From NCBI GenBank assembly GCA_945903265.1, contig CAMDNQ010000022.1, positions 1 through 45,180 on the forward strand: 45,180 bases of DNA, in the 5' to 3' direction. Positions 4,276-41,066 of this stretch are shown in pieces. Numbering within the stretch: position 1 is the first letter of the stretch; the number at the start of each line of letters is the position of its first letter. The position numbers and the translations under genes are program-made. The notes below the pieces were generated by a model that searched no databases, was not told the DNA's origin, and saw only the letters and a program-made list of their open reading frames with translations. The DNA comes from Candidatus Sulfopaludibacter sp. SbA3. GTDB lineage: Bacteria; Acidobacteriota; Vicinamibacteria; Vicinamibacterales; UBA2999.

Positions 4276-4825
4276 GCCAGAGCCACCCGAAGGCGCCGCC
4301 GGTCAGCAAGCCGTAGATCAGCGAGTCGAACGTCTCCTTGAGGCTGGTCTGCCACGCCTTGCGGTACCAGATGGTGCGCGGCCACTGTCCGAGCGCGTAA
4401 CTCATGAACGCCGCGGTGCTCGACACGCGGAAGACCGTCATATAGGGCGCGCCGGCCGGCAGCGCCAGGCTCGTGACATACGCGACGAAGACGCCGACGA
4501 TGGCGCAGAACGCGAACCAGGCGCCGAGCTGGGCTCCCATGCCGTCATACGGCGGCATCACCGTCATCACCACGTTCGGGCCGCGCTTCATCTTCGCCAT
4601 GAAGTCGGCATCGCGCATCGCCGCGGCCGAACCCGGACGAGGCATGTGGTAATCGCCGGGTGGCAGGTTGAAGGCGCGGACGGCGTCCATCGCCGCGTCC
4701 TCGGATGGCACCTTCCGGAAGTCGCTGGCGTGATACCCGAGCAACGCATGAATCGCGTAGCTCGCGAAGAAAATGAGGACCGCCGAAACCAGGATGGGAA
4801 GCCAGAGCGCAGCTATCGAAACCAC
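4265..4825 (-). CDS. small membrane protein, function unknown
   Basis: A 186-residue protein with a hydrophobic N-terminal helix (residues 5-30), a polar middle section of about 60 residues (with HASDFRKVPSED), and three more hydrophobic segments (about 100-125, 130-148, 165-183). I do not recognise a named domain. The start is GTG at 4825 behind a good GAGGAGG Shine-Dalgarno. It is the last gene of the minus-strand run from 10346 down, separated from the DUF411 gene by a 30-bp perfect palindrome. Its stop overlaps the convergent M49 peptidase by 11 bases. Confidence 0.75.
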   Translation of the reverse strand: MVSIAALWLPILVSAVLIFFASYAIHALLGYHASDFRKVPSEDAAMDAVRAFNLPPGDYHMPRPGSAAAMRDADFMAKMKRGPNVVMTVMPPYDGMGAQLGAWFAFCAIVGVFVAYVTSLALPAGAPYMTVFRVSSTAAFMSYALGQWPRTIWYRKAWQTSLKETFDSLIYGLLTGGAFGWLWPSV

Positions 4826-4843
4826 GGAAGCCTCCTCGTTATG

Positions 4844-4873
4844 GTAGGGGCCGACCTTAAGGTCGGCCCCTAC
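4844..4873. repeat. perfect 30-bp palindrome (family B)
   Basis: GTAGGGGCCGACCTT is followed directly by its exact reverse complement, with no loop. It fills most of the 54-base gap between the DUF411 stop and the next start. No T-tract follows on either strand, so it is a poor intrinsic terminator and looks more like a REP-type element. Read as protein it contains VGADLKVGP, a peptide that I recall turning up in spurious reading frames of related genomes (memory, not checked). Confidence 0.85.
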
Positions 4874-4879
4874 AGAAGA

Positions 4880-5347
4880 TCAATGCGAAGCGAAGACCCG
4901 TGTCTGTCCCTGCTTGTCGAACGCGACGACATCATACGCCTGCGGCTTCTGGCCCGGCACTTCCATTCCGGGCGAGCCGATCGGCATCCCCGGCACCGCA
5001 ATGCCAACGACCGATGGACGCTCCTTGAGCAGCCGCTGCACGTCGGCGGCCGGCACGTGACCCTCGATGACGTAGCCGTCGACCACCGCCGTGTGGCACG
5101 ACTGCACGCGCGCCGGCACACCGCGCTGCGCCTTGATGCCCGCGACGTTGTTGCTGTCGGTGACGAGCGTCTTGAAGCCGTGCTGCTCCAGGTGCTTGAC
5201 CCAGCTGGCGCAGCAGCCGCACGTCGGCGACTTGTAAACGTGAACGGTGTAGGCCTGCGAAGCCGGCGCAGGCTTCTGCGCAATCACAATTCCGCCGACG
5301 GATATCAGGGCGCCGAGCAACCCGGCCGCCAGAACACGCTTTCTCAT
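4880..5347 (-). CDS. DUF411 metal-binding protein, exported
   Basis: A 155-residue protein with a signal peptide (to about residue 24) and a DUF411 body. The metal/thiol motif is SPTCGCCASW at about residues 40-49; further conserved parts are the SCHTAVVDGYVIEGHVP block and the C-terminal PGMPIGSPGMEVPG. DUF411 proteins are small periplasmic proteins linked to copper/heavy-metal handling in several bacteria. No copper pump or sensor is next to it here. It lies 24 bases after the M28 peptidase gene, in the same minus-strand run. AAGGGG lies about 6 bases before the ATG. Confidence 0.88.
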   Translation of the reverse strand: MRKRVLAAGLLGALISVGGIVIAQKPAPASQAYTVHVYKSPTCGCCASWVKHLEQHGFKTLVTDSNNVAGIKAQRGVPARVQSCHTAVVDGYVIEGHVPAADVQRLLKERPSVVGIAVPGMPIGSPGMEVPGQKPQAYDVVAFDKQGQTRVFASH

Positions 5348-5371
5348 GTGAACCCCTTGAACCTCTAAACC

Positions 5372-7045
5372 CTAGTTCGCACTTCCGGTCGTCGTCGCCG
5401 GTGCCGCGGCTGGCGGCGGTGCCGGCGCGGGCGCGGGCGGCTGCTGCGGCCGGCGCGGCATCTCGTCGTTCTTGAACCGCGGCAGCGGCTCGTCGCGCAT
5501 CGCCAGGTGATACACCGTCGACGCGATCACGATCGCCGCCTTCTTCACATCATCTTCGACGATCCGCTCGTACGTGTCGAGGTTTGTATGCCACGTGTAC
5601 GACTGGTACTGGATGGGATCCTGGAGGACGTTGATGCCCGGCAGTCCCGCCTCGTTGAACGATGTGCTGTCGGTGCCGCCGCGCTGGCGGCTTCGCGTCG
5701 TGACGGCGCCGAGCACGCCGAGATCCTTCAGCGACGCGACCGCCTCGCGGAGCACCGTTCCGGTTTCCGCCGGCCCGAAGACGTTGAGGCCGCGGGCGCG
5801 CCCGGTGCCGGTGTCCATATTGATATAGCCGGCGAACTTCGCGTACTCCGGCTTCGGTTCCTCGAACGTCCCGAAGTGCTCCTTGACGTAGGCCTGCGAC
5901 CCGAGCAGTCCCTGCTCCTCGCCGGTCCAGAGCGCAAGGCGGATCGTGCGGCGCGGCTTTGCGTCGATCGCGGACAGGATGCGGACGGCTTCCATCATCA
6001 CGGCGCAGCCGATCCCGTTGTCGGTCGCGCCCGTCGCCGCATGCCAGGAATCCAGATGGCCGCCGAGCATCACGACTTCGTCGGCCTTGTCGGTCCCGGG
6101 CAGTTCCGCCGTGACGTTGTACTGGGTGCGCCCTTCCGGGTACGTCGTGTTGGCGATGTCGAATTCGAGCTCCACGGCGCGGCCGTCGTTCAGGAGCCGC
6201 CAGATGCGGCCGTAGTCCTCGTTGCGCATCACCACCGTCGGCGGCGCCTTCGCCACGTCGTACGCGGGGTTGTTGAACGCGCGGATCTGGCCGTGGTCGC
6301 GCCCGGCGTCATTGATACGCACGAGCACGCCGCTGTCGAGCAGGAACTGATTGAGCTGCTCCTGGATCTGTCCGTTGGTGAGCGGCTGCGGCGCGGCGTT
6401 CTGCTGCGCGTTTGGATTGGCGGCGTTGTTCGCGGGTGCGTTGTTTTGCGGCGGCGCCGGCGGCGCTGGCGCATTCAGCTGCGTGAGCACATCGGAGTCA
6501 TCCCGGCGAAGCGCGGGCGGGCTGAACGACACCAGCACCTGCTGCGGCATCCCGACGAGCACCATGCGGCCGGCGAGCGTCGGTTTCATCTTCTCGAGAA
6601 ACTCAGACAGCGATTCCTTCGTCGGCCGCTGCGGGAGCACCAATTGCACCGCCCCGGCGCGGACCACGCCCTTCGTACCCGGCGTCCAGGCAAGCGCCTC
6701 GGCCACCAGCGCATCCCTGGCGGGCGAAACGATGTGCGCCACCAGTCGATCGTTGGTCCACCCGGATCGCGCGAAATCCCACGGCTCGAGCTTGCCGTTC
6801 GTGAGCCCCCACGCGTGCATCTGCTGGATGACCCACTCCCCTGCGGCCTTCACGTTCGGCGAGCCGGTGAGACGCGGGCCGTAGACGTCGGTCAGCGTGT
6901 GCAGCGTCTGGAGGATCCGGGAGTTGTCGGTGCCCTCCGAGCGAATCTTCCAGGCCATCTGCTGGTCGATTCGTTCCTGCGCCTGCACGCTGACGAACGT
7001 GGCGCCAAGGGCGAGTGCGAAGACGAAAAAGAGCGGTTTTCGCAT
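5372..7045 (-). CDS. secreted M28 family zinc aminopeptidase
   Basis: A 557-residue exported peptidase. Signal peptide at residues 1-22. The M28 di-zinc residues can be followed through the sequence: H330 in GGHLDSWH, D342 in ATDNG, catalytic E376/zinc E377 in TGEEQG, D411 in NMDTG and H486 in YTWHTNLD. Between about 185 and 325 is an inserted PA-like region with a low-complexity Pro/Ala/Asn/Gln segment (192-222), and the C-terminus ends in a Pro/Ala tail (535-552). Such enzymes trim N-terminal residues from peptides outside the cytoplasm. The start has AAGGAAGG 6 bases upstream. It follows the S9 peptidase by 26 bases, so the two peptidases and the DUF411 gene are probably co-transcribed. 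Confidence 0.93.
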
Positions 7046-7071: not shown

Positions 7072-9048
7072 CTAACTCAAATTGTCGATATGTACGGGCG
7101 CGATGTCGTCCGCCGGTGTGAAGCCGAAGACCGCCCCGTAGAAATAAAGCTCGGCCTCGAGGCTTCGAATAATTGTCGCAGCCTTTCGGAAACCGTGCTG
7201 CTCCCCTTCGAACGCCAGGTAGGCCACCGGCAGTCCCTTCGCGCGGAGCGCCTCGGCCATCATTTCCGACTGGTTGGGCGGCACGACCTTGTCTTCCAGC
7301 CCCTGCAGCAGGATCAGCGGGCAGGCGAGACGCTCGACCGCATGAATCGGCGACCGGGCACGGTAGATGTCCTTCGCGGCCGGATAGGGGCCGATGAGCG
7401 AGTGCGAGTAGCGCGACTCGAACTTGTGCGTGTCGATCTCGAGCACCTCGAGGTCGCTGATGCCGTAGTAGCTCGCCCCCGCCTTGAACACGTCCGGATG
7501 GAACGCGAGCGCCGCGAGCGTCGTGTAGCCCCCCGCGCTCCCGCCGCGGATGATCAGCCGCTGCTCGTCGGCGCGGCCGCTTCCGCTGAGGAAGCGCGCG
7601 GCGTTGATCACGTCGTGCACGTCGACGATGCCCCAGCGGCCGTTCAGGCGCTCGCGATAGGCACGGCCGAAGCCGGTGCTTCCGCCGTAGTTGACGTCAA
7701 CGACGGCAAAGCCGCGGCTGGTCCAGAACTGAATGGCGAGATCAAACGTCGGATGCGCGGCAGACGTTGGTCCACCGTGGCTGATCGCAATCAGCGGCGG
7801 CGTGTCGCCGGCCGGCGCGCTGAACTCCTTGTTGCGGGGCGCGTAATAGAACGCGTGCGCCGTCTGCCCCTCGTCGGTCGCAAACTCGATGGGCTCGGCG
7901 ACGGAGATGTTGCCGGGATCGATCGCCAGCGAGGACGCGGTACGAAGCACCTCGATCCGGCCAGACGCGAGTTCCACATCGACGAGCGCGTCCGGCGCGG
8001 CATCGAACCCCGAGACGAGCGCCACATGCGTGTCGCTGGCCGCGAGCCAGTCGTGCGGCTGGAGCGTGGCGGCCAGTGTCTCTACAGGCGGCGAGAGCCG
8101 GCCGGTGGCAAGGTCCACGAGCCCGAGATACCAGCGTCCGAGCCGCGTGTACGACACGACCAGACGCGACGGCCCCGCACAGGCCCACGTGGCGGTACCA
8201 AAGACCCACTGCGGTTTCCCGAACTCCGCATCGAGTGGTGCATTGCTGATGACTGGTTCTGGCGAGCGGTCTGAATAGAGTCGCCACCAACCATCGCGAT
8301 CGCTCACGTAATACAAGCTTCCGTCGGGCGACCATCCGGGTTGATAGATCGATTCGGTATCGCCGCCTGCAACGAGGCGCTGGTTCGATAGCGCACCGCT
8401 CGCGTCAACATCGGCGACCCAGAGTTCGGTACCGTCCCACGGCATGTTGGGATGCCGCCACGAGAGCCACGCGAGCCGCGAGCCGTCAGGGCTCAGTCGC
8501 GGCGTCGAATAAAAGTCGTAGCCTGAGGCGAGAACCTCTCCACCGTCGGCTTTCCTGTCCGCCGCAGCCTTGGCGGAGGTGGAAGCCGGACCTAGCGACA
8601 CTGCGACCAGCGTGTTGACCGCTTCGCCCTTCCCGCCGTGATCCTCACGCACGCAGATCAGTCGATTCCGCCGCGCATCCAGCTCGAAGTCGGCGTACAT
8701 GAACGACCCCGCCGGCGTGAGTGCCTCGGGCGGGCGCGACGAGGCGATGCGATACACGCGCTGGTCGCTGAAGTTGACGCAGTAGACAACCCCGCCGCGC
8801 GGCAGGTACGCGCCGCCGCCGTATTCATGCACGCGCGTGCGAACGTTGAACTCGGGCGGCGTCACCTCCGCGATCGCGCCCTCAGCGCTCCGCCGCATGA
8901 GCGCGTACCGGCCGCCTTCGGCCGGCCGTCCTTCAATCCAGTAGAGGTCCGCCCCGTCCCGCTGGACCGCGCCAAGGCGCAGACCTCCGGCCGCCACTGC
9001 TGCCGCAGTGATCGGGGAGGTCCAGGTTCCGTAGGGAGCGGTCGTCAG
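7072..9048 (-). CDS. S9 family (prolyl oligopeptidase-type) serine peptidase
   Basis: About 658 residues: an N-terminal beta-propeller (WSPDG, LSPDGSRLAW repeats) and a C-terminal alpha/beta-hydrolase domain with HGGPTS, the nucleophile motif GGSAGGYTT, an acidic residue in LQGLEDKVVPP and the final His in EGEQHGF. S9C-type acylaminoacyl/oligopeptidases hydrolyse short peptides; no signal peptide is visible, so it is probably cytoplasmic. The family's conserved N-terminus (APYGTWTSPIT) is present, but no ATG, GTG or TTG precedes it in frame. CTG at 9048 overlaps the upstream TGA in a CTGA arrangement and is my chosen start; the fallback is GTG at 8997. A repeat is inserted in frame at 8547-8588. 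Confidence 0.88.
   Translation of the reverse strand: MTTAPYGTWTSPITAAAVAAGGLRLGAVQRDGADLYWIEGRPAEGGRYALMRRSAEGAIAEVTPPEFNVRTRVHEYGGGAYLPRGGVVYCVNFSDQRVYRIASSRPPEALTPAGSFMYADFELDARRNRLICVREDHGGKGEAVNTLVAVSLGPASTSAKAAADRKADGGEVLASGYDFYSTPRLSPDGSRLAWLSWRHPNMPWDGTELWVADVDASGALSNQRLVAGGDTESIYQPGWSPDGSLYYVSDRDGWWRLYSDRSPEPVISNAPLDAEFGKPQWVFGTATWACAGPSRLVVSYTRLGRWYLGLVDLATGRLSPPVETLAATLQPHDWLAASDTHVALVSGFDAAPDALVDVELASGRIEVLRTASSLAIDPGNISVAEPIEFATDEGQTAHAFYYAPRNKEFSAPAGDTPPLIAISHGGPTSAAHPTFDLAIQFWTSRGFAVVDVNYGGSTGFGRAYRERLNGRWGIVDVHDVINAARFLSGSGRADEQRLIIRGGSAGGYTTLAALAFHPDVFKAGASYYGISDLEVLEIDTHKFESRYSHSLIGPYPAAKDIYRARSPIHAVERLACPLILLQGLEDKVVPPNQSEMMAEALRAKGLPVAYLAFEGEQHGFRKAATIIRSLEAELYFYGAVFGFTPADDIAPVHIDNLS
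8547..8588. repeat. imperfect palindrome inside the S9 peptidase gene
   Basis: A 42-bp imperfect inverted repeat. The inner stem is TCCGCC/GGCGGA (8558-8577), and outer arms CGGCTT/AAGCCG extend it. It encodes an Ala/Lys-rich stretch (TSAKAAADRKADGG) between propeller strands, where the family normally has a short variable loop. It looks like a REP-type element tolerated in frame. Confidence 0.6.
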
Positions 9049-10346
9049 TTGGTGCGGGAGGCGCCGGGACGATACATCACGCGCCAGAGTTTTCCCTTGA
9101 TTGAATCGATCACGTAGAGCGATCCGTCGGGGCCCTGCGCGAGGCCCATCGGCCGTGCCGCCGCCTCCTTCGTCGTCATGATCGTCGGCATCCCGGCGAA
9201 GCCGTGCGCGAACACTTCGTACGCGCCCGACGCCTTGCCGTCGCGCATCGGCTGGAAGACGACGTTGTAGCCGCCCTGCGGCAGGGGTGCGCGGCTCGAG
9301 CCGCCGTGAAACGCGATGAAGATCCCGCCGCGATACTTCGGCTCGAACTGCGTGCCGGTGTAGACCATCATGTCGTTCGGCGCCCAGTGGGCCGGGTACG
9401 CCGCGACCGGCGCCTGATACTTGGCGCAGTCGCCTTCCTTCTTCCCGTCGCCGCCGTACTCGGGCGACAGCACGCGCTTGTTCTGCAGCCGGTCGTAATA
9501 GCAGTACGGGAATCCGTGATTCGAGCCCTGGTCGATGCGCTGCAGTTCCTCGGACGGCTGCTCGGCGTTCTGATCCGGCGTGTAGTACTCGGTCCAGCGG
9601 TTGAGTCCCGCCCGCCCGTGCTGCACGAGGTACAGCGCATTCGCGGCCGGGTGCCACGCCATCGCATTCGTCTGGCGCAGGCCAGTGGAATACTGCCGGC
9701 CATCCTTGCCGAAGACCTGCCCGGTGCGGTTCGCGTCGAAACGCCACACGCCGCCGCCCGTCTCGAGATACGTGCAGGGATTCAGGCCCGACGTCTTCGT
9801 CTGATCGGGGTCGGTGCAGGCATTCGCGCGAAGGCCGACATTGACGTACAGCCCGCCGCTGGCGTCGAACGCGAGCGTCTTCGTCGGATGCACCCGCTGA
9901 TCGGGAAAGCCGGTGACCACCGTTTCGGCCGCACCGGATGGCTTCAGCTCTCCCGTCTTGATCGGGAACCGGACGATCGCGAAGTCCTGCGCCTGATAGA
10001 GATAGCCGTTGTGCAGCACGAGGCCGGTGCCGCCTGTGTCGCCGAATCGCTCGCGGACGTCCGCACGCCCGTCGCCGTTGGTATCGCGGAGACCGACGAT
10101 GCCGCCGGGGACGCCAGGCATGTTGCGGAGCGTCACGAAGATGTCGCCGTTGGGCGCGACGGCGAGGTGCCGGGCAAATCCGACCTCATCCGCAACGACC
10201 GTCGCGCAGAACCCGGCCGGGAGCGTGAGGCCGCCGCTTTGGCCGGCGCTGTCCTGCGCGCAGGCGGGTACGGGCGCCTGCTGGGCAAAAAGGACCGCTG
10301 GCGCGGCAAGAACCGTCGTGACGAGCGCGGCGAGAGTTCGGTGCAT
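9045..10346 (-). CDS. exported PQQ-type sugar (L-sorbosone-like) dehydrogenase
   Basis: A 433-residue protein with a signal peptide (residues 1-21) followed by a six-bladed propeller of the soluble glucose/sorbosone dehydrogenase fold. Landmarks are LPAGFCATVVADEVGFARHLAVAPNGDIFV near the start, DTNGDGRAD (calcium-type loop), the central QTNAMAWHPAANALYLVQHGR, and GFPYCYYD. Four or more cysteines suggest disulfides. Members oxidise sugars or sugar aldehydes in the periplasm using PQQ, but the exact substrate cannot be read here and no PQQ genes are in view. GGAGG lies 7 bases before the ATG. Its stop shares bases with the start of the S9 gene, so translational coupling is likely. It is the first gene of the minus-strand run and is divergent from the L,D-transpeptidase. 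Confidence 0.88.
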   Translation of the reverse strand: MHRTLAALVTTVLAAPAVLFAQQAPVPACAQDSAGQSGGLTLPAGFCATVVADEVGFARHLAVAPNGDIFVTLRNMPGVPGGIVGLRDTNGDGRADVRERFGDTGGTGLVLHNGYLYQAQDFAIVRFPIKTGELKPSGAAETVVTGFPDQRVHPTKTLAFDASGGLYVNVGLRANACTDPDQTKTSGLNPCTYLETGGGVWRFDANRTGQVFGKDGRQYSTGLRQTNAMAWHPAANALYLVQHGRAGLNRWTEYYTPDQNAEQPSEELQRIDQGSNHGFPYCYYDRLQNKRVLSPEYGGDGKKEGDCAKYQAPVAAYPAHWAPNDMMVYTGTQFEPKYRGGIFIAFHGGSSRAPLPQGGYNVVFQPMRDGKASGAYEVFAHGFAGMPTIMTTKEAAARPMGLAQGPDGSLYVIDSIKGKLWRVMYRPGASRTN

Positions 10347-33014: not shown

Positions 33015-33482
33015 TCAGATCAATCGTTCGGAGACGACCGGGATGCGCTTCTCGACGATGACGTCCCACCAGCCGAAGTGGACGGCAAGGACGTGATCGA
33101 GCTCGCGGGTGTCGACGGTGCTGATTGCCTGGCCGGTGGAGGGCATGCAGTAGGCGGCGTGCGGCGACGCGGCCAGCATATGGAGCACGCCGGAGGAAAA
33201 CCCGCTGCCGCCGTACGCGACGCAGCCCGACATCGCGAGCGAGCGGACGTCCTCGAGGGCGTACGGGATCTTCTCGTCCACCGACCCCTGGCTATCCTGG
33301 AACTTGCACTCGATGGCGAACGCCTTCTGCCCTTCTTCGCTGACGCAGAAGACGTCGACGCAGCGGTCCTTGCCGATGATCGTCTTGCCGACGCGCACTT
33401 CGCGGTAGACCTTCAGCCCGCGCGGCCCGAAGCGCGTGGCGATGTACGACGCGACAAGGTTGGCGTAATCGGCGCCCGTCAT
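33015..33482 (-). CDS. PD-(D/E)XK nuclease superfamily protein, candidate restriction enzyme
   Basis: A 155-residue protein. The motif is D43 in KDRCVDVFCV, then E58-C-K60 in FAIECKFQ, giving D-(x14)-E-x-K; N-terminal TGADYANLVASYIATRF is a helix typical of small restriction-type folds. It could cut DNA but may be a diverged, non-specific or inactive member. It is co-oriented with and 22 bases downstream of a DNA methyltransferase gene, the arrangement expected of a type II restriction-modification pair. No Shine-Dalgarno is seen; the repeat F copies separate the two genes. Partner specificity unknown. Confidence 0.75.
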   Translation of the reverse strand: MTGADYANLVASYIATRFGPRGLKVYREVRVGKTIIGKDRCVDVFCVSEEGQKAFAIECKFQDSQGSVDEKIPYALEDVRSLAMSGCVAYGGSGFSSGVLHMLAASPHAAYCMPSTGQAISTVDTRELDHVLAVHFGWWDVIVEKRIPVVSERLI

Positions 33483-33490
33483 CGAGGGTG

Positions 33491-33540
33491 CGTAGTGTCC
33501 GGCTTCATCGGGGGTACGTAGTGTCCGGCTTTAGCCGGAC
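33491..33540. repeat. family F repeat: direct pair plus palindrome
   Basis: CGTAGTGTCCGGCTT occurs twice, at 33491-33505 and 33517-33531, with a 26-base period. The second copy runs into a perfect palindrome GTCCGGCTTTAGCCGGAC (33523-33540). The unit supplies the last residues and stop codon of the methyltransferase (VRLKPDTTYPR). The shared core ACGTAGTGTCCGGCT is also found inside nrdJ (38127-38175). Confidence 0.85.
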
Positions 33541-34281
33541 CTCCTCGAGCAAATCGGGTTGTTCGTCAGGCGGATCCGCGGGCAGGTCGTCCGGCACGCG
33601 CCCTTCCCCGAACTCGCGCAGTCGATTCGCGGCAATGCGGACGGCTTCGGGATTCAGGTCGTTGCCGAGGAACCGCCGCCCGAGCCGCACGGCGGCGACG
33701 CCCACGCTTCCCGATCCCATGAACGGATCGGCGACGACATTCCCTGGCGACGAGCTCTGATTGATGAGAGCCTCGGCCACCTCGGTGGGCTTCTCCGCCG
33801 GATACCCGCCGCGGACGCGCGACACTTCGATGATGTCGGCCATGCCGAGATCGTTCAGCTTGCGCTTCCCTTTCTCGAAAAACAGGATCAGCTCGTAGCG
33901 CGCGCGGTAGTGATACCCCATCCCGATCGTCTGCTTGTCCCACACGAGCGGCTTCCAGAACTTGAAGCCGGCCAGCTCCGCTTCCGGCTTCGCCACGAAC
34001 ATCGTTTCGGCGTCGCAGAGCAGGTAGAAGTGCGAGTCCTTCTTGAGGACGCGGTACACCTCGCGGAACAGCTCGCCGAAGCGCGCGTTCGGAAAGATGG
34101 CGAACCAGTCGTTGCTGGACGACTTGCTGTGCTTCAGCCTCGTCGTCGTCCCGATCGCGCGATGCTTTTCGAGCGACTCGTAGGCGGGATCGGTGATCAG
34201 CAGGTCGACGGACGCGGCCGGCTGCGTCTGCAGCCAGGCGACGGCGTCGAGATGCGCAAGTTCGTAAGGGGAGGCAGCCAC
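33505..34281 (-). CDS. beta-class DNA (N4-cytosine/N6-adenine) methyltransferase
   Basis: A 258-residue enzyme with motif IV DPAY (31-34) before motif I DPFMGSGS (185-192), the order of the beta class; motif X-like NPEAVRIAANR follows. The target (N6-A or N4-C) and recognition site cannot be read from sequence. It sits directly upstream of the PD-(D/E)XK gene on the same strand, so I read the pair as a candidate type II restriction-modification system. Start is GTG 34281, no Shine-Dalgarno. The C-terminal residues VRLKPDTTYPR and the stop come from a family F repeat, so the native C-terminus has been replaced or extended. Confidence 0.88.
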   Translation of the reverse strand: MAASPYELAHLDAVAWLQTQPAASVDLLITDPAYESLEKHRAIGTTTRLKHSKSSSNDWFAIFPNARFGELFREVYRVLKKDSHFYLLCDAETMFVAKPEAELAGFKFWKPLVWDKQTIGMGYHYRARYELILFFEKGKRKLNDLGMADIIEVSRVRGGYPAEKPTEVAEALINQSSSPGNVVADPFMGSGSVGVAAVRLGRRFLGNDLNPEAVRIAANRLREFGEGRVPDDLPADPPDEQPDLLEEVRLKPDTTYPR

Positions 34282-34816: not shown

Positions 34817-35218
34817 CTAGTCCAGCTTCGACGCGATCGTGATCTTGAAGCCGCTCGGCTCGGTGACGTTGAACGCGCGGGCGCCCCATTCGGTGTCGTG
34901 CGCGTCCTTGTCGAGCGCGACGCCGTTCTTCTTCGCCGTCGCCGCGAGCTCGTCGATGTTCTGCGCGGTGCTGATGTAGAACCGGAGGCCCAGACCCTTC
35001 TTCCGGTCGCGGCCCGCCTTCCAGTCGTCCTGGCTCAGGCCCACCTCGACGTCGCCGCCCTTCATCGTCGCACCAAGGAGTTTCCCTTCGTGCTCCCAGC
35101 GCTGGCCGGCGCTGAATCCGAGACCCTCGAAGAATTTCATGCTCGCCTGGAGATCGTCCACCGTGAGCGTGGGCATGATCGTCTTGGCCTGAAAGGGTGC
35201 GGTTGTCTGGGTCGTCAT
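34817..35218 (-). CDS. VOC (glyoxalase/bleomycin-resistance) family protein
   Basis: A 133-residue protein with the two beta-alpha-beta-beta-beta units of the VOC fold: IMPTLTVDDLQASMKFFEGLGFSAGQRW, GDVEVGLSQDD, then LRFYISTAQNIDELAATAKKNG and the terminal TEWGARAFNVTEPSGFKITIA. VOC proteins bind a metal and act on thiohemiacetals, antibiotics or aromatic substrates; this one is not assigned. GGAGA precedes the ATG. The alpha/beta hydrolase gene starts upstream, 11 bases from this start, on the same strand. Confidence 0.87.
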   Translation of the reverse strand: MTTQTTAPFQAKTIMPTLTVDDLQASMKFFEGLGFSAGQRWEHEGKLLGATMKGGDVEVGLSQDDWKAGRDRKKGLGLRFYISTAQNIDELAATAKKNGVALDKDAHDTEWGARAFNVTEPSGFKITIASKLD

Positions 35219-35229
35219 GGCGTCTCCAG

Positions 35230-36096
35230 TTACGTCGAGCGCGGCGTGTTGGTCTTCAGGAACGAGCGGACGTGGCGGACAGCAAGAGGTATCCGCGACG
35301 AGGGTTCTTTCCAGGGATAGAGGCTCACCTGCGCGTTCGGCGCGAGCATGGCAGTTTCCATCGCCACGGCGTACGGGTGCGCGGGGATGTCGTCCGGCAG
35401 GATCAGCACGGGCGTCTTGCAGCTCTTCACGAACTCGCGCGAGACGGTGAACACGAAGTCCGGATTCGTCCGGTACATGCGCGTGAGGAACTGATCGACC
35501 TGCGCCATCGTGATCTCGGGCCGGCGCTTCACGAGCTCGGGTCCCCAGCCCTTGATGTTGTTCTCGTAGAACAGATCGCGCGCTTCGGGTCGCGACCCGC
35601 TCGGCTGCGCGAGGACGGCCGCGACGACGCGTGCGGGCGCGCGCTCGAGGAGATTCCAGATGAAGGGCCCGCCGATACAGAAGCCGAGCACCGCGAACTG
35701 CTTGATGCCCAGGTGGTCCATCAGGGCGAGCTGGTCGTCCGCGTGCATGTCCCACGGCCGCTCGATGTCGAGCGGCCCGGTGGACTGGCCGTTGTTGGAG
35801 TTACGCGGGTCGAATGCGATGCAGCGGTACTCCTTGCTGAACTCCTCGACCGGATTGAAGGGCGAGTTGAGCGTCCCCTGAATCGAGCCGTTCAGGCCGC
35901 CACCGGAGATCAGCAGCAGCGGGAACCCGGAGCCCCACTCCTGATAGCGGATGCGAACGTTCCCCCTCTCGAAGAACTTCATGCCCGCGCCGACCGGTTT
36001 GGGTTGCTGAGCGAACAGGCCCTTTGTAGCCGCAACTGCCGTGGCCGCCGCCGCTGCACCAGTCTTCAACAATGAACGTCTAATTTCGTCAACCAT
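35230..36096 (-). CDS. Tat-exported alpha/beta hydrolase with Cys nucleophile
   Basis: A 288-residue protein with a twin-arginine type signal (RRSLLKTGAAAAATAVA, residues 6-22) and an alpha/beta-hydrolase fold: SGGGLNG oxyanion region (64-70), FDPRNSNNGQS, and nucleophile elbow GFCIGG with Cys140 instead of Ser. A Cys at this position is known in dienelactone-type enzymes but unusual for the canonical fold seen here. Substrate unknown. GGAGGG precedes the ATG. The VOC gene is 11 bases downstream, so they are probably co-expressed. It is the last gene before the low-GC island. Confidence 0.86.
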   Translation of the reverse strand: MVDEIRRSLLKTGAAAAATAVAATKGLFAQQPKPVGAGMKFFERGNVRIRYQEWGSGFPLLLISGGGLNGSIQGTLNSPFNPVEEFSKEYRCIAFDPRNSNNGQSTGPLDIERPWDMHADDQLALMDHLGIKQFAVLGFCIGGPFIWNLLERAPARVVAAVLAQPSGSRPEARDLFYENNIKGWGPELVKRRPEITMAQVDQFLTRMYRTNPDFVFTVSREFVKSCKTPVLILPDDIPAHPYAVAMETAMLAPNAQVSLYPWKEPSSRIPLAVRHVRSFLKTNTPRST

Positions 36097-36401
36097 CGTC
36101 GTCCCTCCGCGCCGTTACTCTATGTGAAGACAAGGCTTAATGACAGTCGCATGATTATGCGAAACACCCCCGTGTCACCGCGCGTTCGAGACAACGTTAA
36201 CAACGCTTGTCCCGGACGACTCGGAGGCAGTTCGGCCATCAGCAGATTCATCGACGCGCCCCCATGGCTACAGCGTCTCTAGTAGATCGTTCGAATGGAT
36301 GAACGGATGCCGCATCGAACGCTAACCGGAATGACAGCTTACGTCACACTTCCCGAATGAGACCTCGCGAGGACGACATTTGAAAGAACGTAGAACGTCA
36401 C
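36097..36401. other. 305-bp low-GC gap, left flank of the SEFIR island
   Basis: No supported gene. Base composition falls to about half G+C. It contains one short dyad, TCGCAT-GATT-ATGCGA (36147-36162). No clear promoter or terminator is visible. Part of an acquired segment with 36402-37865. Confidence 0.5.
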
Positions 36402-37865
36402 TTACCAGATTCCCAACTGCCCGCGCACCAAGCCCACAAACTCTTTTAATGAAGCCAACAACTGTTTCGCACGATCTGGCGAACCTCCAAAAAATCCAGC
36501 TTGGAGAGGTGCCCATTCCACCCCTTGAGTATCTAGTTCGCTTTCGATCTGCTCGATCAATCCGCTCCGGCGCCAGACGAAGGAGCCTAATGGCGCCCAA
36601 AAGCGTTCGCGCTTATCAAAGTCGGCGTAGGTAAGGGCCTGAAGTAATTCGAAGCGATCAAACGCACGAACATACTCGTCATCGTCTGGAACGAACTCGT
36701 TGAGAAAACCCTTCAGCGTTTCTTGAAAGTAGTCCGATACCGGGAAATAGTGTCGTTCTTGCTCAGGTAACCACTTCCACTGCCTCTGGGCAAATCCGGC
36801 CCCGGTGTGCAGAGCTCGAATGAGCGGAAGCTCCGCGTCTTGATGGCGTTCGCGCGATTTGACATCAACCATCAGACGACGAAGCATGACGTACGATTCA
36901 TTCGCCACAGCCGCGATTCCCCCGCAGTACAACCCGCGCAATGATGGGTACCGGATTACGTTTTCCCAAAGCTCATAAAATGTGCCTTGGGGCTGGGGAA
37001 CGATGGTGATTTGCTTCAGTGCCGTAGTAAAGATCTTGGCTTCATTAGCGCTTGCCCAAAACCCTCCGACAGCGAGCACCTGACAAATGTCGTTTGTCGC
37101 TGCATCGGCCTCACTTATCCTTTGCAGGAACGATGCCTCGGTTGGCGGCTCTGAATATTTCACCAAACTGCTTGCCAGGACCTGCTCCTTCGCATGGAGG
37201 GCGATAGGGACAACGACATCGTGCAGGGCCATCAAGTGTGATGGCTTCGAAATTAGACCCTTGATTGTTCCCACAAGCGCGGACGCCTCGTCGGGAACAT
37301 GCAATTCAATCCATTGCTTGGCTGTATCAGACGTCGTAACAAAATCATGCTTAACGACTAACGCCGAGCCCTCACCCGACCCGTCGAACGGACTTGATCC
37401 GAGCGGAGGCTTACCGGGATCCGGAACCTCAAAAATTTCGCGCAACAAGGTTTCCAAGCTTGTCGCGTATTTCGCATCGTCCTCAAAATCAATGTAAAGG
37501 CGGTATCCCAAGAAGGCGGGCACGGGCGGCGTGCCAGAGCCTCGGATGATCGGGATGAATTTCTTAGTTCCCAAGTTCGGTATAAGTTCAGCTGTGACGA
37601 TCATCTTCTCGTAGCCAACCCCGCCCTTACCCTCTTCCGCGCGCTCGACGTAAATATTGGAGCAAACGACAATCACGCGGTCCGCAGACTTCAGACCCAT
37701 CTCCATGAAGGCAGCAATGTCTTGGCCGGGACTCAAATCCCACTGATCAAGGACTGCGTCGACTCCATTTCCCCGAAGGTCTGAGGCGAGTTTTAGCACC
37801 CACAGTTTGTGAGTGGGCGAATCGTGGGAATACGAAATAAAAACGTTTGGGGCAGTTTTCGCCAT
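36402..37865 (-). CDS. SEFIR/TIR-domain protein, candidate anti-phage defence gene
   Basis: A 487-residue protein. Residues 8-145 form a SEFIR/TIR-like domain: VFISYSHDSPTHKLWVLKLA, DAVLDQWDL at 36-44, VIVVCSNIYV, and GVGYEKMIV with Glu86 at the position of the TIR catalytic Glu. Such domains usually cleave NAD+ in bacterial immunity. Residues 160-487 are alpha/beta, with no recognised motif, and probably sense the trigger. Base composition is clearly lower in G+C than the neighbours. A single-gene SEFIR defence system has been described; the layout here (SEFIR then about 330 unknown residues) fits that type. It begins only a few bases after the nrdJ terminator and shows no promoter of its own and no Shine-Dalgarno. 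Confidence 0.83.
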   Translation of the reverse strand: MAKTAPNVFISYSHDSPTHKLWVLKLASDLRGNGVDAVLDQWDLSPGQDIAAFMEMGLKSADRVIVVCSNIYVERAEEGKGGVGYEKMIVTAELIPNLGTKKFIPIIRGSGTPPVPAFLGYRLYIDFEDDAKYATSLETLLREIFEVPDPGKPPLGSSPFDGSGEGSALVVKHDFVTTSDTAKQWIELHVPDEASALVGTIKGLISKPSHLMALHDVVVPIALHAKEQVLASSLVKYSEPPTEASFLQRISEADAATNDICQVLAVGGFWASANEAKIFTTALKQITIVPQPQGTFYELWENVIRYPSLRGLYCGGIAAVANESYVMLRRLMVDVKSRERHQDAELPLIRALHTGAGFAQRQWKWLPEQERHYFPVSDYFQETLKGFLNEFVPDDDEYVRAFDRFELLQALTYADFDKRERFWAPLGSFVWRRSGLIEQIESELDTQGVEWAPLQAGFFGGSPDRAKQLLASLKEFVGLVRGQLGIW

Positions 37866-37871
37866 TTGTTT

Positions 37872-37908
37872 TCAAAAAAGCGAAGGGGCGGACATCGGTC
37901 CGCCCCTT
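37872..37908 (-). terminator. intrinsic terminator after nrdJ
   Basis: On the minus strand AAGGGGCGGAC pairs with GTCCGCCCCTT across a 4-base loop (CGAT), followed by CGCTTTTTT. This is the best intrinsic terminator in the window; the hairpin itself resembles the families of GC-rich palindromes. It ends about seven bases before the SEFIR start codon, so that gene may rely on read-through. Confidence 0.75.
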
Positions 37909-37944
37909 TTGTTCATCAGCCCTCGCTACAGCGACGGACTTAAA

Positions 37945-40926
37945 TCAGGCGCAGCCGCTGGTTGTCCCGCAGTTGACGCACTTGTAGCAGGAGCCGCTGC
38001 GGATCATCAGCGATCCGCAGGTGGAACAGGGCGGCGCGTCTTCCTGCGCCTGGATGGCCGCGAACTCGCTCGGCTTGCCCTTCGGCTCGGTCCGGCTGCC
38101 TGCCCCGACGGTGAGCGAGCCGGGGAAGCCGGACACTACGTCTGAAGGTTTCGAGCCGGACGCTACGTCTGAAGGGGCCTTCGGTGCCGGCGCGGCGGAA
38201 GCCTGAACCTTCGAACCGGAACCCTGATCCCCGATCCCCGATCCCTGATCCCCGGCAGGTTCCTTCATGTTGACCCCTGCGCGGAACTGGGCCTCGTGCG
38301 ACAGGAACTTCGTGGCCATCCACCGGAAGATGTAATCCACAATCGACTTCGCGAAGCGGACCTCGGGGTTCTTCGTCATCCCCGACGGCTCGAACCGCGC
38401 GTGGCTGAACTTGTCCACCAGCACCTGCAGCGGCACGCCGTACTGCAGCGCATATGAGATCGCCTGCGCGAAGGCGTCCGCAAAGCCCGAAATCGTCGAG
38501 CCCTCCTTCGCCATCGTCAGGAAAATCTCGCCAGGGGTCCCGTCCTCGAACAGGCCCACCGTGATGTAGCCCTCGTGGCCCGCGATGTCGAACTTGTGCG
38601 TGATCGACGCGCGCTCGTCGCCCAGCTTCCGCCGGCGCGGGGTCTCGACGATCTTGATGACTTCCTTGACCGTCTCGACCGACTGATTGAAGGCGGCGCC
38701 CACGTTGCGCGTGTCGGTGACCTGCGCCTTCGAGGTGTTGAGCGGCTGCGTCCGCTTGCTGCCGTCGCGGTAAATCGAGATCGCCTTCGCGCCCAGGCGC
38801 CACGACTCGAGGTAGGCCTTCTCGATGTCCTCGACCGTCGCATGCCGCGGCACGTTCACCGTCTTGCTGATCGCGCCCGAGATGAATGGCTGCGTCGCAC
38901 CCATCATCCGGATGTGGCCCATGTACTCGATCGAGCGCTCGCCCTGCGCAGGCTTGAACGCGCAGTCGAAGACCGCCAGGTGCTCGTCCTTCAGGAACGG
39001 CGCGCCTTCGATCGTTTCCTTCTCGTCGATGAAGTGGATGATCGCTTCGATCTCGCCTTCGGCGTAGCCCAGCTTCCGGAGCGCCATCGGCACGGTGCCG
39101 TTGACAATCTTCATCAGGCCGCCGCCCACGAGCTTCTTGTACTTGACCAGCGCGATGTCCGGCTCCACGCCCGTCGTGTCGCAGTCCATCATGAAGCCGA
39201 TGGTCCCGGTCGGCGCCAGCACCGTCGCCTGCGCGTTCCGGTAGCCGAAGTCCTCGCCCAGCTCCACCGCCTCGTCCCACGCCTGCTTCGCGCCCGCGAA
39301 CAGATCCTGCGGGACGACCTTCGAGTTGATCTCGCTCACCGCGTCGCGATGCTTCCGCATCACGCGCAGGAACGGCTCGCGGTTCTTCTCGTAGCCGGCA
39401 AACGGACCACCATGGTCGCGCGCAATCCGCGCCGACTGCGCGTACGCCTCGCCCGTCATCACCGCGGTGATCGCCGCGGCATACGCCCGGCCCTCGTCGC
39501 TGTCATACGGCAGGCCGCGCGACATCAGCAGCGCGCCCAGGTTAGCGTAGCCCAGGCCGAGCGGCCGGTAGTCGTGGCTGTTCTTCTCGATCGCCTTCGT
39601 CGGATAGCTCGAGTTCGGGACGATGATCTCCTGCGCGGTGATCATGATGCGGCAGGCCGCCTTGAACGCCGCCACGTCGAGCTCGCCGTCTTCCTTGACG
39701 AACTTCATCAGGTTGATCGACGACAGGTTGCACGCCGAGTCGTCCAGGAACATGTACTCGGAGCACGGGTTGCTCGCGTTGATGCGGTCCGTGTTCGGGC
39801 ACGTGTGCCAGTCGTTGACGGTCGTGTCGAACTGCATGCCCGGATCGCCGCAGATGTGCGTGCCGACCGCGATGTCGCGCATCAGGTCGCGCGCCTTGTA
39901 GGTGTCCACCACCGCCCCGTCACGCACCGCCTTCGTCGTCCACTCGCCATCGTCCAGGACGGCGCGCATGAAGTCGTCCGTGACGCGGACGCTGTTGTTC
40001 GAGTTCTGGAAGAAGACCGAGCCGTACGCGACACCCGTGAACGAGCCGTCGTAGCCGGCGTCGATCAGCGCCCACGCCTTCTTCTCTTCCTCGACCTTGC
40101 AGTTGATGAATTCGTGGATGTCCGGATGGTCGGCGTTGAGGATGACCATCTTCGCCGCGCGGCGCGTCTTGCCGCCCGACTTGATGACGCCCGCAAACGC
40201 GTCGTACCCCTTCATGAACGAGACAGGGCCGCTGGCCGTGCCGCCGCCCGCCAGGAGCTCCTTCGACGACCGGATCGCCGACAGGTTGCTGCCGGTGCCC
40301 GAGCCGAACTTGAAGAGCATCCCCTCGGTCTTGGCCAGCGTCAGGATCGCTTCCATCGTGTCCTGCACGGCGTTGATGAAGCAGGCCGAGCATTGCGGCG
40401 CCTTCTCGAAGCCGCAGTTGAACCAGACGGGGCTGTTGAACGCCGCCTTCTGATACACGAGCATGTGCTTCAGTTCGGCGGAGAACGACTGGAGCGCATC
40501 CTCGCTCGAGAAGTACTTGTCCTGCCGCGCCCACATGGTGATCGTGTCGACGACGCGGCCGATCAGCTGCTTGACGCTGCGCTCGCGCTCCGGCGTCCCG
40601 ACCTGGCCGCGGAAGTATTTGGAGACGACGATGTTGGTGGCCTGCTGGGACCAGAAGCGGGGAAACTCGACGTCCCGCTGCTCGAAGACGACCTTGCCCA
40701 ATTCGTTACCGATGACCGCCGCGCGGGTTTCCCATTCGACCTCGTCGAACGGATCCACGCCCGGCAGGGTGAAGTAACGCGGAAACTCGACCCCCGGAAT
40801 CGCAGTGTTTCTCTGTTCCACGCTCTTGCGCGCGCGGACCGACGAATCGCCCTGCGACGTTCCCGTCGCCGACGACTCCAACTGCTGTCCTGCGGGGGCA
40901 GCTTCGCGGGCAGGCCCTTCTTCCAT
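37945..40926 (-). CDS. nrdJ: vitamin B12-dependent (class II) ribonucleotide reductase
   Basis: A 993-residue enzyme that converts ribonucleotides to deoxyribonucleotides using adenosylcobalamin, with or without oxygen. FNCGFEKAPQCSACFIN, FGSGTGSNLSAIR, the active-site NPCSEYMFLD, and APTGTIGFMMDCDTTGVEPD are typical. A C-terminal zinc-ribbon-like C-x2-C...C-x2-C motif (CSTCGS, CYKCVNC) ends the protein, as in other NrdJ. The 60-residue linker before it is made of repeats: a 22-bp direct pair and GATCCCC heptamers. ATG 40926 is chosen with GGAGG upstream. It is the only RNR in view. Confidence 0.95.
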   Translation of the reverse strand: MEEGPAREAAPAGQQLESSATGTSQGDSSVRARKSVEQRNTAIPGVEFPRYFTLPGVDPFDEVEWETRAAVIGNELGKVVFEQRDVEFPRFWSQQATNIVVSKYFRGQVGTPERERSVKQLIGRVVDTITMWARQDKYFSSEDALQSFSAELKHMLVYQKAAFNSPVWFNCGFEKAPQCSACFINAVQDTMEAILTLAKTEGMLFKFGSGTGSNLSAIRSSKELLAGGGTASGPVSFMKGYDAFAGVIKSGGKTRRAAKMVILNADHPDIHEFINCKVEEEKKAWALIDAGYDGSFTGVAYGSVFFQNSNNSVRVTDDFMRAVLDDGEWTTKAVRDGAVVDTYKARDLMRDIAVGTHICGDPGMQFDTTVNDWHTCPNTDRINASNPCSEYMFLDDSACNLSSINLMKFVKEDGELDVAAFKAACRIMITAQEIIVPNSSYPTKAIEKNSHDYRPLGLGYANLGALLMSRGLPYDSDEGRAYAAAITAVMTGEAYAQSARIARDHGGPFAGYEKNREPFLRVMRKHRDAVSEINSKVVPQDLFAGAKQAWDEAVELGEDFGYRNAQATVLAPTGTIGFMMDCDTTGVEPDIALVKYKKLVGGGLMKIVNGTVPMALRKLGYAEGEIEAIIHFIDEKETIEGAPFLKDEHLAVFDCAFKPAQGERSIEYMGHIRMMGATQPFISGAISKTVNVPRHATVEDIEKAYLESWRLGAKAISIYRDGSKRTQPLNTSKAQVTDTRNVGAAFNQSVETVKEVIKIVETPRRRKLGDERASITHKFDIAGHEGYITVGLFEDGTPGEIFLTMAKEGSTISGFADAFAQAISYALQYGVPLQVLVDKFSHARFEPSGMTKNPEVRFAKSIVDYIFRWMATKFLSHEAQFRAGVNMKEPAGDQGSGIGDQGSGSKVQASAAPAPKAPSDVASGSKPSDVVSGFPGSLTVGAGSRTEPKGKPSEFAAIQAQEDAPPCSTCGSLMIRSGSCYKCVNCGTTSGCA
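38127..38175. repeat. 22-bp direct repeat pair in the nrdJ linker (family F)
   Basis: AGCCGGAC[A/G]CTACGTCTGAAGG at 38127-38148 and 38154-38175, one mismatch, 27-base period, so it preserves frame and encodes PSDVASGSK/PSDVVSGFP. It shares ACGTAGTGTCCGGCT with 33517-33531 (reverse complement). Confidence 0.85.
38226..38253. repeat. four GATCCCY heptamers in the nrdJ linker
   Basis: GATCCCC, GATCCCC, GATCCCT, GATCCCC with a fifth degenerate unit (GAACCCT) at 38219-38225. On the coding strand the unit is GGGATCR, the same as the array at 23628. Three units make 21 bases, so the encoded peptide repeats every seven residues (GDQGSGI). Confidence 0.85.
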
Positions 40927-41066
40927 CAATCCCTCCGAACGACGGATCGCCCACCCCTAGGACGGATCCGCAAACCGACTATGTTGTGAGTTTTGCGCTC
41001 AGATGACCCGAGAATCGCCCGGAAGCTGGGAAGGATCCGTTTTCATCTCGTTCAAGCGCGAGAGGC

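Follow-up and report, generated by a model that had tools for sequence, protein, structure and literature searches.

The original paper on the SEFIR defence system is reportedly that of Millman et al. 2022. As far as the available excerpts of the literature go, SEFIR is an NAD+-depleting abortive-infection system (PMC12322248, PMC12774641, PMC11084316, PMC11559045), and SpbK and Swarozyc are single-protein NADases with a sensing domain, both triggered by the phage portal (PMC12847820, PMC13174449). Two PADLOC profiles, bSEFIR (PDLC03957) and PDC-S65 (PDLC05061/PDLC05060), each match one half of the protein described here; neither the name bSEFIR nor a description of the function of PDC-S65 was found in the open-licence literature searched. 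The C-terminal half of the candidate PDC-S65 is called S65C below, a label of our own.

The protein is encoded in the window, the whole 45,180-nucleotide stretch of Candidatus Sulfopaludibacter sp. SbA3 DNA that was analysed. On the sequence evidence, the gene is real, foreign-looking and intact, a chimera whose two modules have separate entries in PADLOC, and among all proteins surveyed the exact SEFIR-S65C pairing occurs in this one only. It probably encodes a horizontally acquired, single-gene anti-phage abortive-infection protein composed of a SEFIR NADase effector and a regulatory, probably infection-sensing S65C half. The features of the locus are as follows:

37945..40929, minus strand: nrdJ, B12-dependent ribonucleotide reductase, the upstream neighbour and old boundary of the insertion
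37874..37908, minus strand: terminator-like hairpin and T-run after nrdJ (sequence and pattern scan)
36402..37865, minus strand: SEFIR-S65C fusion gene, 487 aa, a single intact ORF
37422..37853, minus strand: SEFIR/TIR domain, residues 5-148, predicted NADase effector (Pfam, PADLOC and PDB matches)
37608..37610, minus strand: codon of Glu86, candidate catalytic residue in GGVGYEK (sequence)
37332..37406, minus strand: linker, residues 154-178, pLDDT under 50 (full-length model)
36405..37298, minus strand: S65C domain, residues 190-487, all-alpha (PADLOC PDC-S65 match and model)
35230..36096, minus strand: alpha/beta hydrolase, the downstream neighbour (GC 0.641, GC3 0.855)

The low-GC island and its place beside nrdJ

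The GC content of the fusion gene is 0.530, compared with a mean of 0.666 (sd 0.014, minimum 0.621; z ~ -9.4) for 404 control windows of the gene's size, all taken from the part of the same contig that lies within the window and outside 36-38 kb. Its GC3 is 0.584 against 0.786-0.910 for nine other genes of the window, and a 600-bp profile runs at 0.525-0.547 across 36.0-37.8 kb, the lowest value outside the island and its flanks being 0.605. The original prediction of a low-GC island with one gene is borne out, as the intact ORF at 36402-37865 fills it. A spurious ORF or composition artefact is ruled out, as two domains were matched independently within a single uninterrupted frame. An RNA element in the island was also rejected (Rfam gave no match at gathering score in 35000-39000), as was a tRNA-borne island (no tRNA within the window). 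A search of the own genome gave no second copy of the gene. Around the gene, no flanking repeats were found other than a 14-nt direct pair (86% identical, sharing GCTACAGCG) at 36262-36275 and 37920-37933, one copy on either side, which may be a target-site duplication or a chance match.

The upstream neighbour, nrdJ, was matched in 24 of 26 genomes of the family, the own genome included. When seven proteins of the window were searched against 17 nrdJ-downstream regions of relatives, some of them short, neither the SEFIR gene nor the hydrolase matched in any of the 17. In genome G014, the genes after nrdJ are related to those of the window for glyoxalase (57% identical), the DNA methylase (83%) and the PDDEXK nuclease (75%). 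In G022, they are the methylase (82%), part of the nuclease and DinB (56%). The SEFIR gene, perhaps together with the hydrolase, was thus inserted into an older order of genes; since the composition of the hydrolase is normal, the SEFIR gene alone looks foreign. GC, GC3 and the insertion beside nrdJ all support the reading of the island as foreign DNA, and the gene was probably acquired horizontally.

The site after nrdJ (window 37874-37945; L197-L213) varies among relatives of the family and may be an insertion spot. Methylase genes follow nrdJ in G011 and G009, recQ-like ORFs (labelled by reading) follow it in five genomes, and in G013 it is followed by a low-GC ORF of 731 aa with masked stretches, for which no PADLOC family match was obtained. 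Elsewhere in the window, at 33015-34281, a DNA methylase gene (N6_N4_Mtase 2.8e-32) adjoins a PD-(D/E)XK gene (PDDEXK_11 8.9e-37); the two are kept as a pair in G014 and are a possible restriction-modification pair.

Whether the gene is expressed is uncertain, because its ATG lies 8 nt past the end of the terminator-like T-run of nrdJ (37866-37879) and no promoter-like site was found upstream in a scan. The terminator scan by itself is no proof, as shuffled sequence is expected to give 2.5 such sites where the region has 2. This arrangement, and a gene composition not adapted to the host, would suit a recent insertion that is unexpressed or decaying and has no present function, a reading that we regard as very improbable given that the frame of 487 codons is complete, that the Glu86 motif is undamaged and that the S65C match spans profile positions 2-295 of 300.

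The two domains of the fusion protein

The N-terminus, predicted earlier to be of SEFIR/TIR type, matched Pfam TIR_2 (5.2e-21) and SEFIR (3.9e-16), PADLOC bSEFIR (residues 4-160, 3.9e-70) and the PDB SEFIR chain 5y8e (5.5e-25), all of which support that assignment. Residue 86, named as a catalytic-type glutamate, is indeed a Glu within the motif GGVGYEK; each of the 13 SEFIR relatives in the alignment has the motif with this residue, and Glu86 is a candidate for the catalytic role. The boundary originally placed at residue 160 is a fair one, falling within the low-confidence linker of the model (residues 154-178). The 13 relatives were obtained from a scan of viral contigs and are 47-54% identical to the SEFIR domain of the window; their C-termini differ, none of the 13 matching an S65C profile. 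Matches in the phage collection (5 records) lay within residues 1-159 only, and of the 169 plasmid records matching the whole protein (E 1e-5) one alone covers 80% of its length.

For the C-terminal half, a profile search and a structure prediction had been proposed with the original prediction, and both were run. Residues 190-476 matched positions 301-586 of 592 of PDC-S65 (PADLOC, E 4.7e-47), and 42 of 42 rows of the S65C domain alignment (A4) matched the same family at E <= 0.01. The S65C domain of the window covers positions 2-295 of 300 in our A2 profile (7.8e-92); as the window row is among the 23 rows of that profile, the independent test is the PADLOC match. With Pfam and PHROGs, the best E-value was 0.014, in one of 42 rows each, and a profile search of PDB sequences gave 0.33 at best. 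The earlier statement that this domain could not be named therefore stands as far as Pfam and PHROGs are concerned, but not for PADLOC, where it is already the C-terminal half of PDC-S65; its novelty is reduced in part by this match to a defence family, PDC-S65 being a listed candidate that is itself uncharacterised.

AlphaFold2 modelled residues 176-487 as almost all-alpha with a small beta hairpin (pLDDT 89.7, pTM 0.89), while the full-length model, built on alignment A6 (a full-length alignment with C-terminal rows begun later), was weaker (pLDDT 77.5, pTM 0.62). The S65C model has no clear match among solved structures: Foldseek returned nothing at E <= 0.001 in PDB or BFVD, and a second structural comparison gave, among the families that it covered, helical repeats, mostly designed (best Z 8.3 over 145 residues, rmsd 4.5), natural ARM/HEAT-type chains scoring Z near 5. 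Ten columns are invariant in the 42-row alignment, and aromatic residues, Pro and Gly make up most of the strongly conserved columns, a pattern that fits a conserved ligand and a purely structural role alike and does not decide between them. A scaffold for oligomerisation or autoinhibition, with the trigger sensed elsewhere or consisting of a general stress state, would agree with an all-alpha fold, with generic helical-repeat neighbours and with such columns. We nevertheless consider it improbable that S65C is such a scaffold, as S65C fusions mostly consist of an effector and S65C alone, which leaves no other obvious place for sensing, and as stand-alone copies of S65C are genes of their own.

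Distribution and effector partners of S65C

The whole protein matched 3 of 59 genomes, namely its own, one by its C-terminal part and one by a short N-terminal stretch; the two non-own genomes are of the same order, and none of 35 genomes of the same family matched. One profile detected S65C in the phylum of the window (10 of 396 genomes, with the own genome and nine others, carriers known beforehand, included), in that of Pseudogulbenkiania (7 of 398, known carrier G427 included; one match, G498, partial), in that of an Actinomycetota MAG (7 of 396, G428 and G431 included) and in that of a Planctomycetota MAG (2 of 294, G430 included). Among 72,556 plasmid records, 26, 24 and 20 matched three different S65C queries (E 1e-3), haloarchaeal plasmids yielded more S65C loci, and a scan of genome contigs gave 44 loci, which by their titles come from several phyla of bacteria and two groups of archaea. 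Scans of viral contigs with the whole protein and with the S65C domain of L005 confirmed no relative of these queries, nor did a scan of genome contigs with the window's C-terminal half. This broad, sporadic presence suits a mobile defence gene.

In a survey that is biased to caspase forms, and whose counts are therefore not frequencies, the 76 non-redundant S65C proteins comprised 37 with a caspase, 24 with SIR2, 6 with TIR/SEFIR, 2 with a ParA-like domain, and one each with a kinase and a Schlafen/AlbA domain, the other 5 being stand-alone copies. Forty-one of the 76 came from scans with one pattern set derived from alignment A3, WGP[IV]G[RC]FG(W) and a second pattern (viral scan); the remaining 35 were SIR2 22, TIR/SEFIR 6, caspase 4, and stand-alone, kinase and Schlafen/AlbA 1 each. 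Duplicates (L059, L084, L092, L114, L130) and partial domains (L100, L129) were dropped before this count, L069, scored as stand-alone, was relabelled by reading as a caspase protein cut at a contig end, and the fragment L078 was set to caspase by reading. Left out of the survey were loci matching by their SIR2 region only, the duplicates L116-L123 and L136-L145, and further plasmid matches.

The full PDC-S65 proteins are SIR2-S65C fusions (Pfam SIR2_2 in four that were scanned, the others by similarity). In the window's own phylum, S65C is also found at the C-terminus of a caspase protein (L012, Peptidase_C14 1.3e-14) and of a Ser/Thr kinase (L014, Pkinase 2.5e-50). Plasmid-encoded proteins with S65C at the C-terminus include the TIR_2 proteins of four Rhodococcus records (L034, L035, L049, L054) and a mycobacterial Schlafen/AlbA_2 protein; ParA-like NTPases have the domain in L065 (AAA_31 4.4e-07) and, by similarity, L086. 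The effector motifs are intact wherever the effector domain is complete: the SIR2 motifs in 24 of 24 SIR2-S65C proteins, and the caspase motifs GHG and DACYGG in 34 and 35 of 37 caspase-S65C proteins, respectively, the misses being L068 and L069, which are cut by the locus end, and the fragment L078. In the phage collection, a caspase-S65C protein matched 3 records, by its caspase part only. Two plasmid loci carry further genes close by. In the Rubrobacter plasmid L051 (5134-8429), a kinase gene (PADLOC PD-T4-6 1.3e-35) directly follows the SIR2-S65C gene and lexA precedes it. The Rhodococcus plasmid L034 has another gene with a TIR domain some 2.4 kb upstream of its TIR-S65C gene (4629-5546, 7986-9512); a DUF4231 gene and an IS3 transposase separate the two.

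On a tree of the 76 S65C domains, four rows of which have long branches, the effector labels need at least 9 changes compared with a mean of 33.8 for shuffled labels, so effectors have passed down unchanged over long stretches of the tree, with occasional exchanges. Effector swaps are real but infrequent and the labels strongly clustered; the firmly supported branches force at least three TIR/SEFIR origins, four caspase changes and three SIR2 changes. The window row is one of 32 rows that form a firmly supported set (24 SIR2, 6 TIR/SEFIR, 1 kinase, 1 Schlafen) and groups nearest with SIR2 rows, at a support of only 95/77. In the simplest reading, a SEFIR domain would have replaced SIR2, one type of NADase taking the place of another.

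The gene neighbourhood survey, likewise proposed at the outset, placed S65C homologues on plasmids and beside Shedu, DUF4062 and TIR genes, hence not in housekeeping contexts only. Four of the five stand-alone copies adjoin such a gene. In L072, S65C begins 18 nt past a Shedu SduA gene (SduA_C 2e-16; PADLOC SduA 2.4e-70). In L092 (= G422), the end of a DUF4062 gene (1.3e-20) and the S65C frame overlap, and an integrase-like gene (labelled by reading) precedes the pair. The copy in L095 has methylase-type genes on one side and, on the other, a TIR gene 139 nt downstream and a Schlafen-type gene farther on. In L098, a ThsB gene (PADLOC 2.7e-124) lies 76 nt away in convergent orientation, not in one operon with S65C, and Prok-E2/ThiF and Metal_CEHH genes are also near. 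No effector gene was evident beside S65C on the short contig L077. The copies in L072 (3064-3951), L077 (839-1729) and L095 (7977-8861) form one tight, firmly supported clade, and their MAGs are titled Heimdallarchaeota, Omnitrophota and Actinomycetota, respectively, which reflects either recent cross-domain transfer or mis-binned contigs.

These partners bear on what S65C responds to. It could be a receptor for a nucleotide second messenger, such as a cADPR isomer made by a TIR protein, instead of a phage component, as in Thoeris. Its two commonest partners, SIR2 and caspase, are the type I and type IV Thoeris effector classes in the excerpts available of PMC12847820, the stand-alone copies in L098 and L095 lie near a ThsB and a TIR gene, and ten invariant columns would suit a conserved ligand. 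Against this, a search of 68 loci, some with short flanks, with nine seed proteins showed a further TIR gene at only one S65C fusion locus (L034), though distant TIRs could escape it, all other TIR and DUF4062 neighbours belong to stand-alone copies, and SEFIR and TIR domains make signals themselves. A stand-alone receptor without an output domain would be of little use, so stand-alone S65C copies beside effectors favour a sensor or activator, and we consider a second-messenger receptor unlikely.

The preferred reading of the window protein, which we regard as probable, is an abortive-infection NADase with a sensing half; as a prediction, its role in defence is well supported by homology and by the partners and neighbours of S65C. 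S65C would hold the SEFIR effector inactive until an infection cue is met; the cue would lead S65C to bring SEFIR domains together, and the clustered SEFIR domains would cleave NAD+ and thereby stop the infected cell. The NADase activity, the phage defence, the sensing and the clustering are all inferred. The original suggestion that the C-terminal domain could be a new sensor is plausible, the more so as effectors of many kinds are fused or adjacent to it. Being joined to so many kinds of defence enzyme, S65C may be a widely shared infection sensor. Tentatively, we go further and propose an unrecognised, effector-agnostic infection sensor of prokaryotic immunity in bacteria and archaea, which would act for the at least six effector classes fused to it, would switch TIR, DUF4062 and Shedu proteins in trans when it stands alone, and would respond to one conserved cue.

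In the open-licence literature searched for a domain common to SIR2, TIR and caspase defence proteins, we found no description of S65C, and none of one uncharacterised domain used across many immune effectors. To our knowledge, the trigger of most abortive-infection effectors is not known. One presumed sensor that occurs with at least six kinds of effector makes this question testable, as NAD+ loss, proteolysis, phosphorylation and nuclease activity could each serve as its readout. An S65C profile would moreover link caspase, SIR2, TIR, DUF4062 and Shedu loci that are at present classified separately or not classified.

Comparison with known systems

The window protein shares the SEFIR domain with bSEFIR, residues 4-160 matching profile positions 38-198 of 412; the match stops there and the C-terminal half is S65C instead, which rules out a plain bSEFIR protein. 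With PDC-S65 it shares the C-terminal half (4.7e-47), but it has SEFIR in place of the SIR2 half; a plain PDC-S65 protein is likewise ruled out, as the match starts at position 301 and Pfam shows TIR_2 and SEFIR and no SIR2. The TIR_2-S65C proteins of the Rhodococcus plasmids have the same layout, an N-terminal TIR-type effector and a C-terminal S65C, but their TIR_2 domain has no Pfam SEFIR match and the best full-length pair is 22.6% identical; since their S65C domains lie apart from that of the window on the tree, they represent a separate joining event. Thoeris resembles these loci in that SIR2 and caspase effectors recur with S65C and in that a ThsB gene lies beside one stand-alone copy. 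It differs in that the window gene has no ThsA or ThsB neighbour and is flanked by nrdJ and the hydrolase; without a partner gene beside it, the window gene is ruled out as a Thoeris component.

In its working, the window protein would resemble SpbK and Swarozyc, in which, according to the available excerpts of the literature, one protein combines a TIR-type NADase with an auxiliary domain and acts through NAD+ depletion and abortive infection. The auxiliary domain of Swarozyc is described there as an HTH/winged fold (PMC13174449), whereas that of the window protein is modelled as the large helical S65C, and a Pfam search of the window protein at E-values up to 1 did not show the DUF4062 domain of Swarozyc. 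According to the same excerpts (PMC13174449), DUF4062 proteins that differ in kind from that of L092 are portal-activated NADases. By analogy with SpbK and Swarozyc, the window protein probably works like the single-protein NADase systems.
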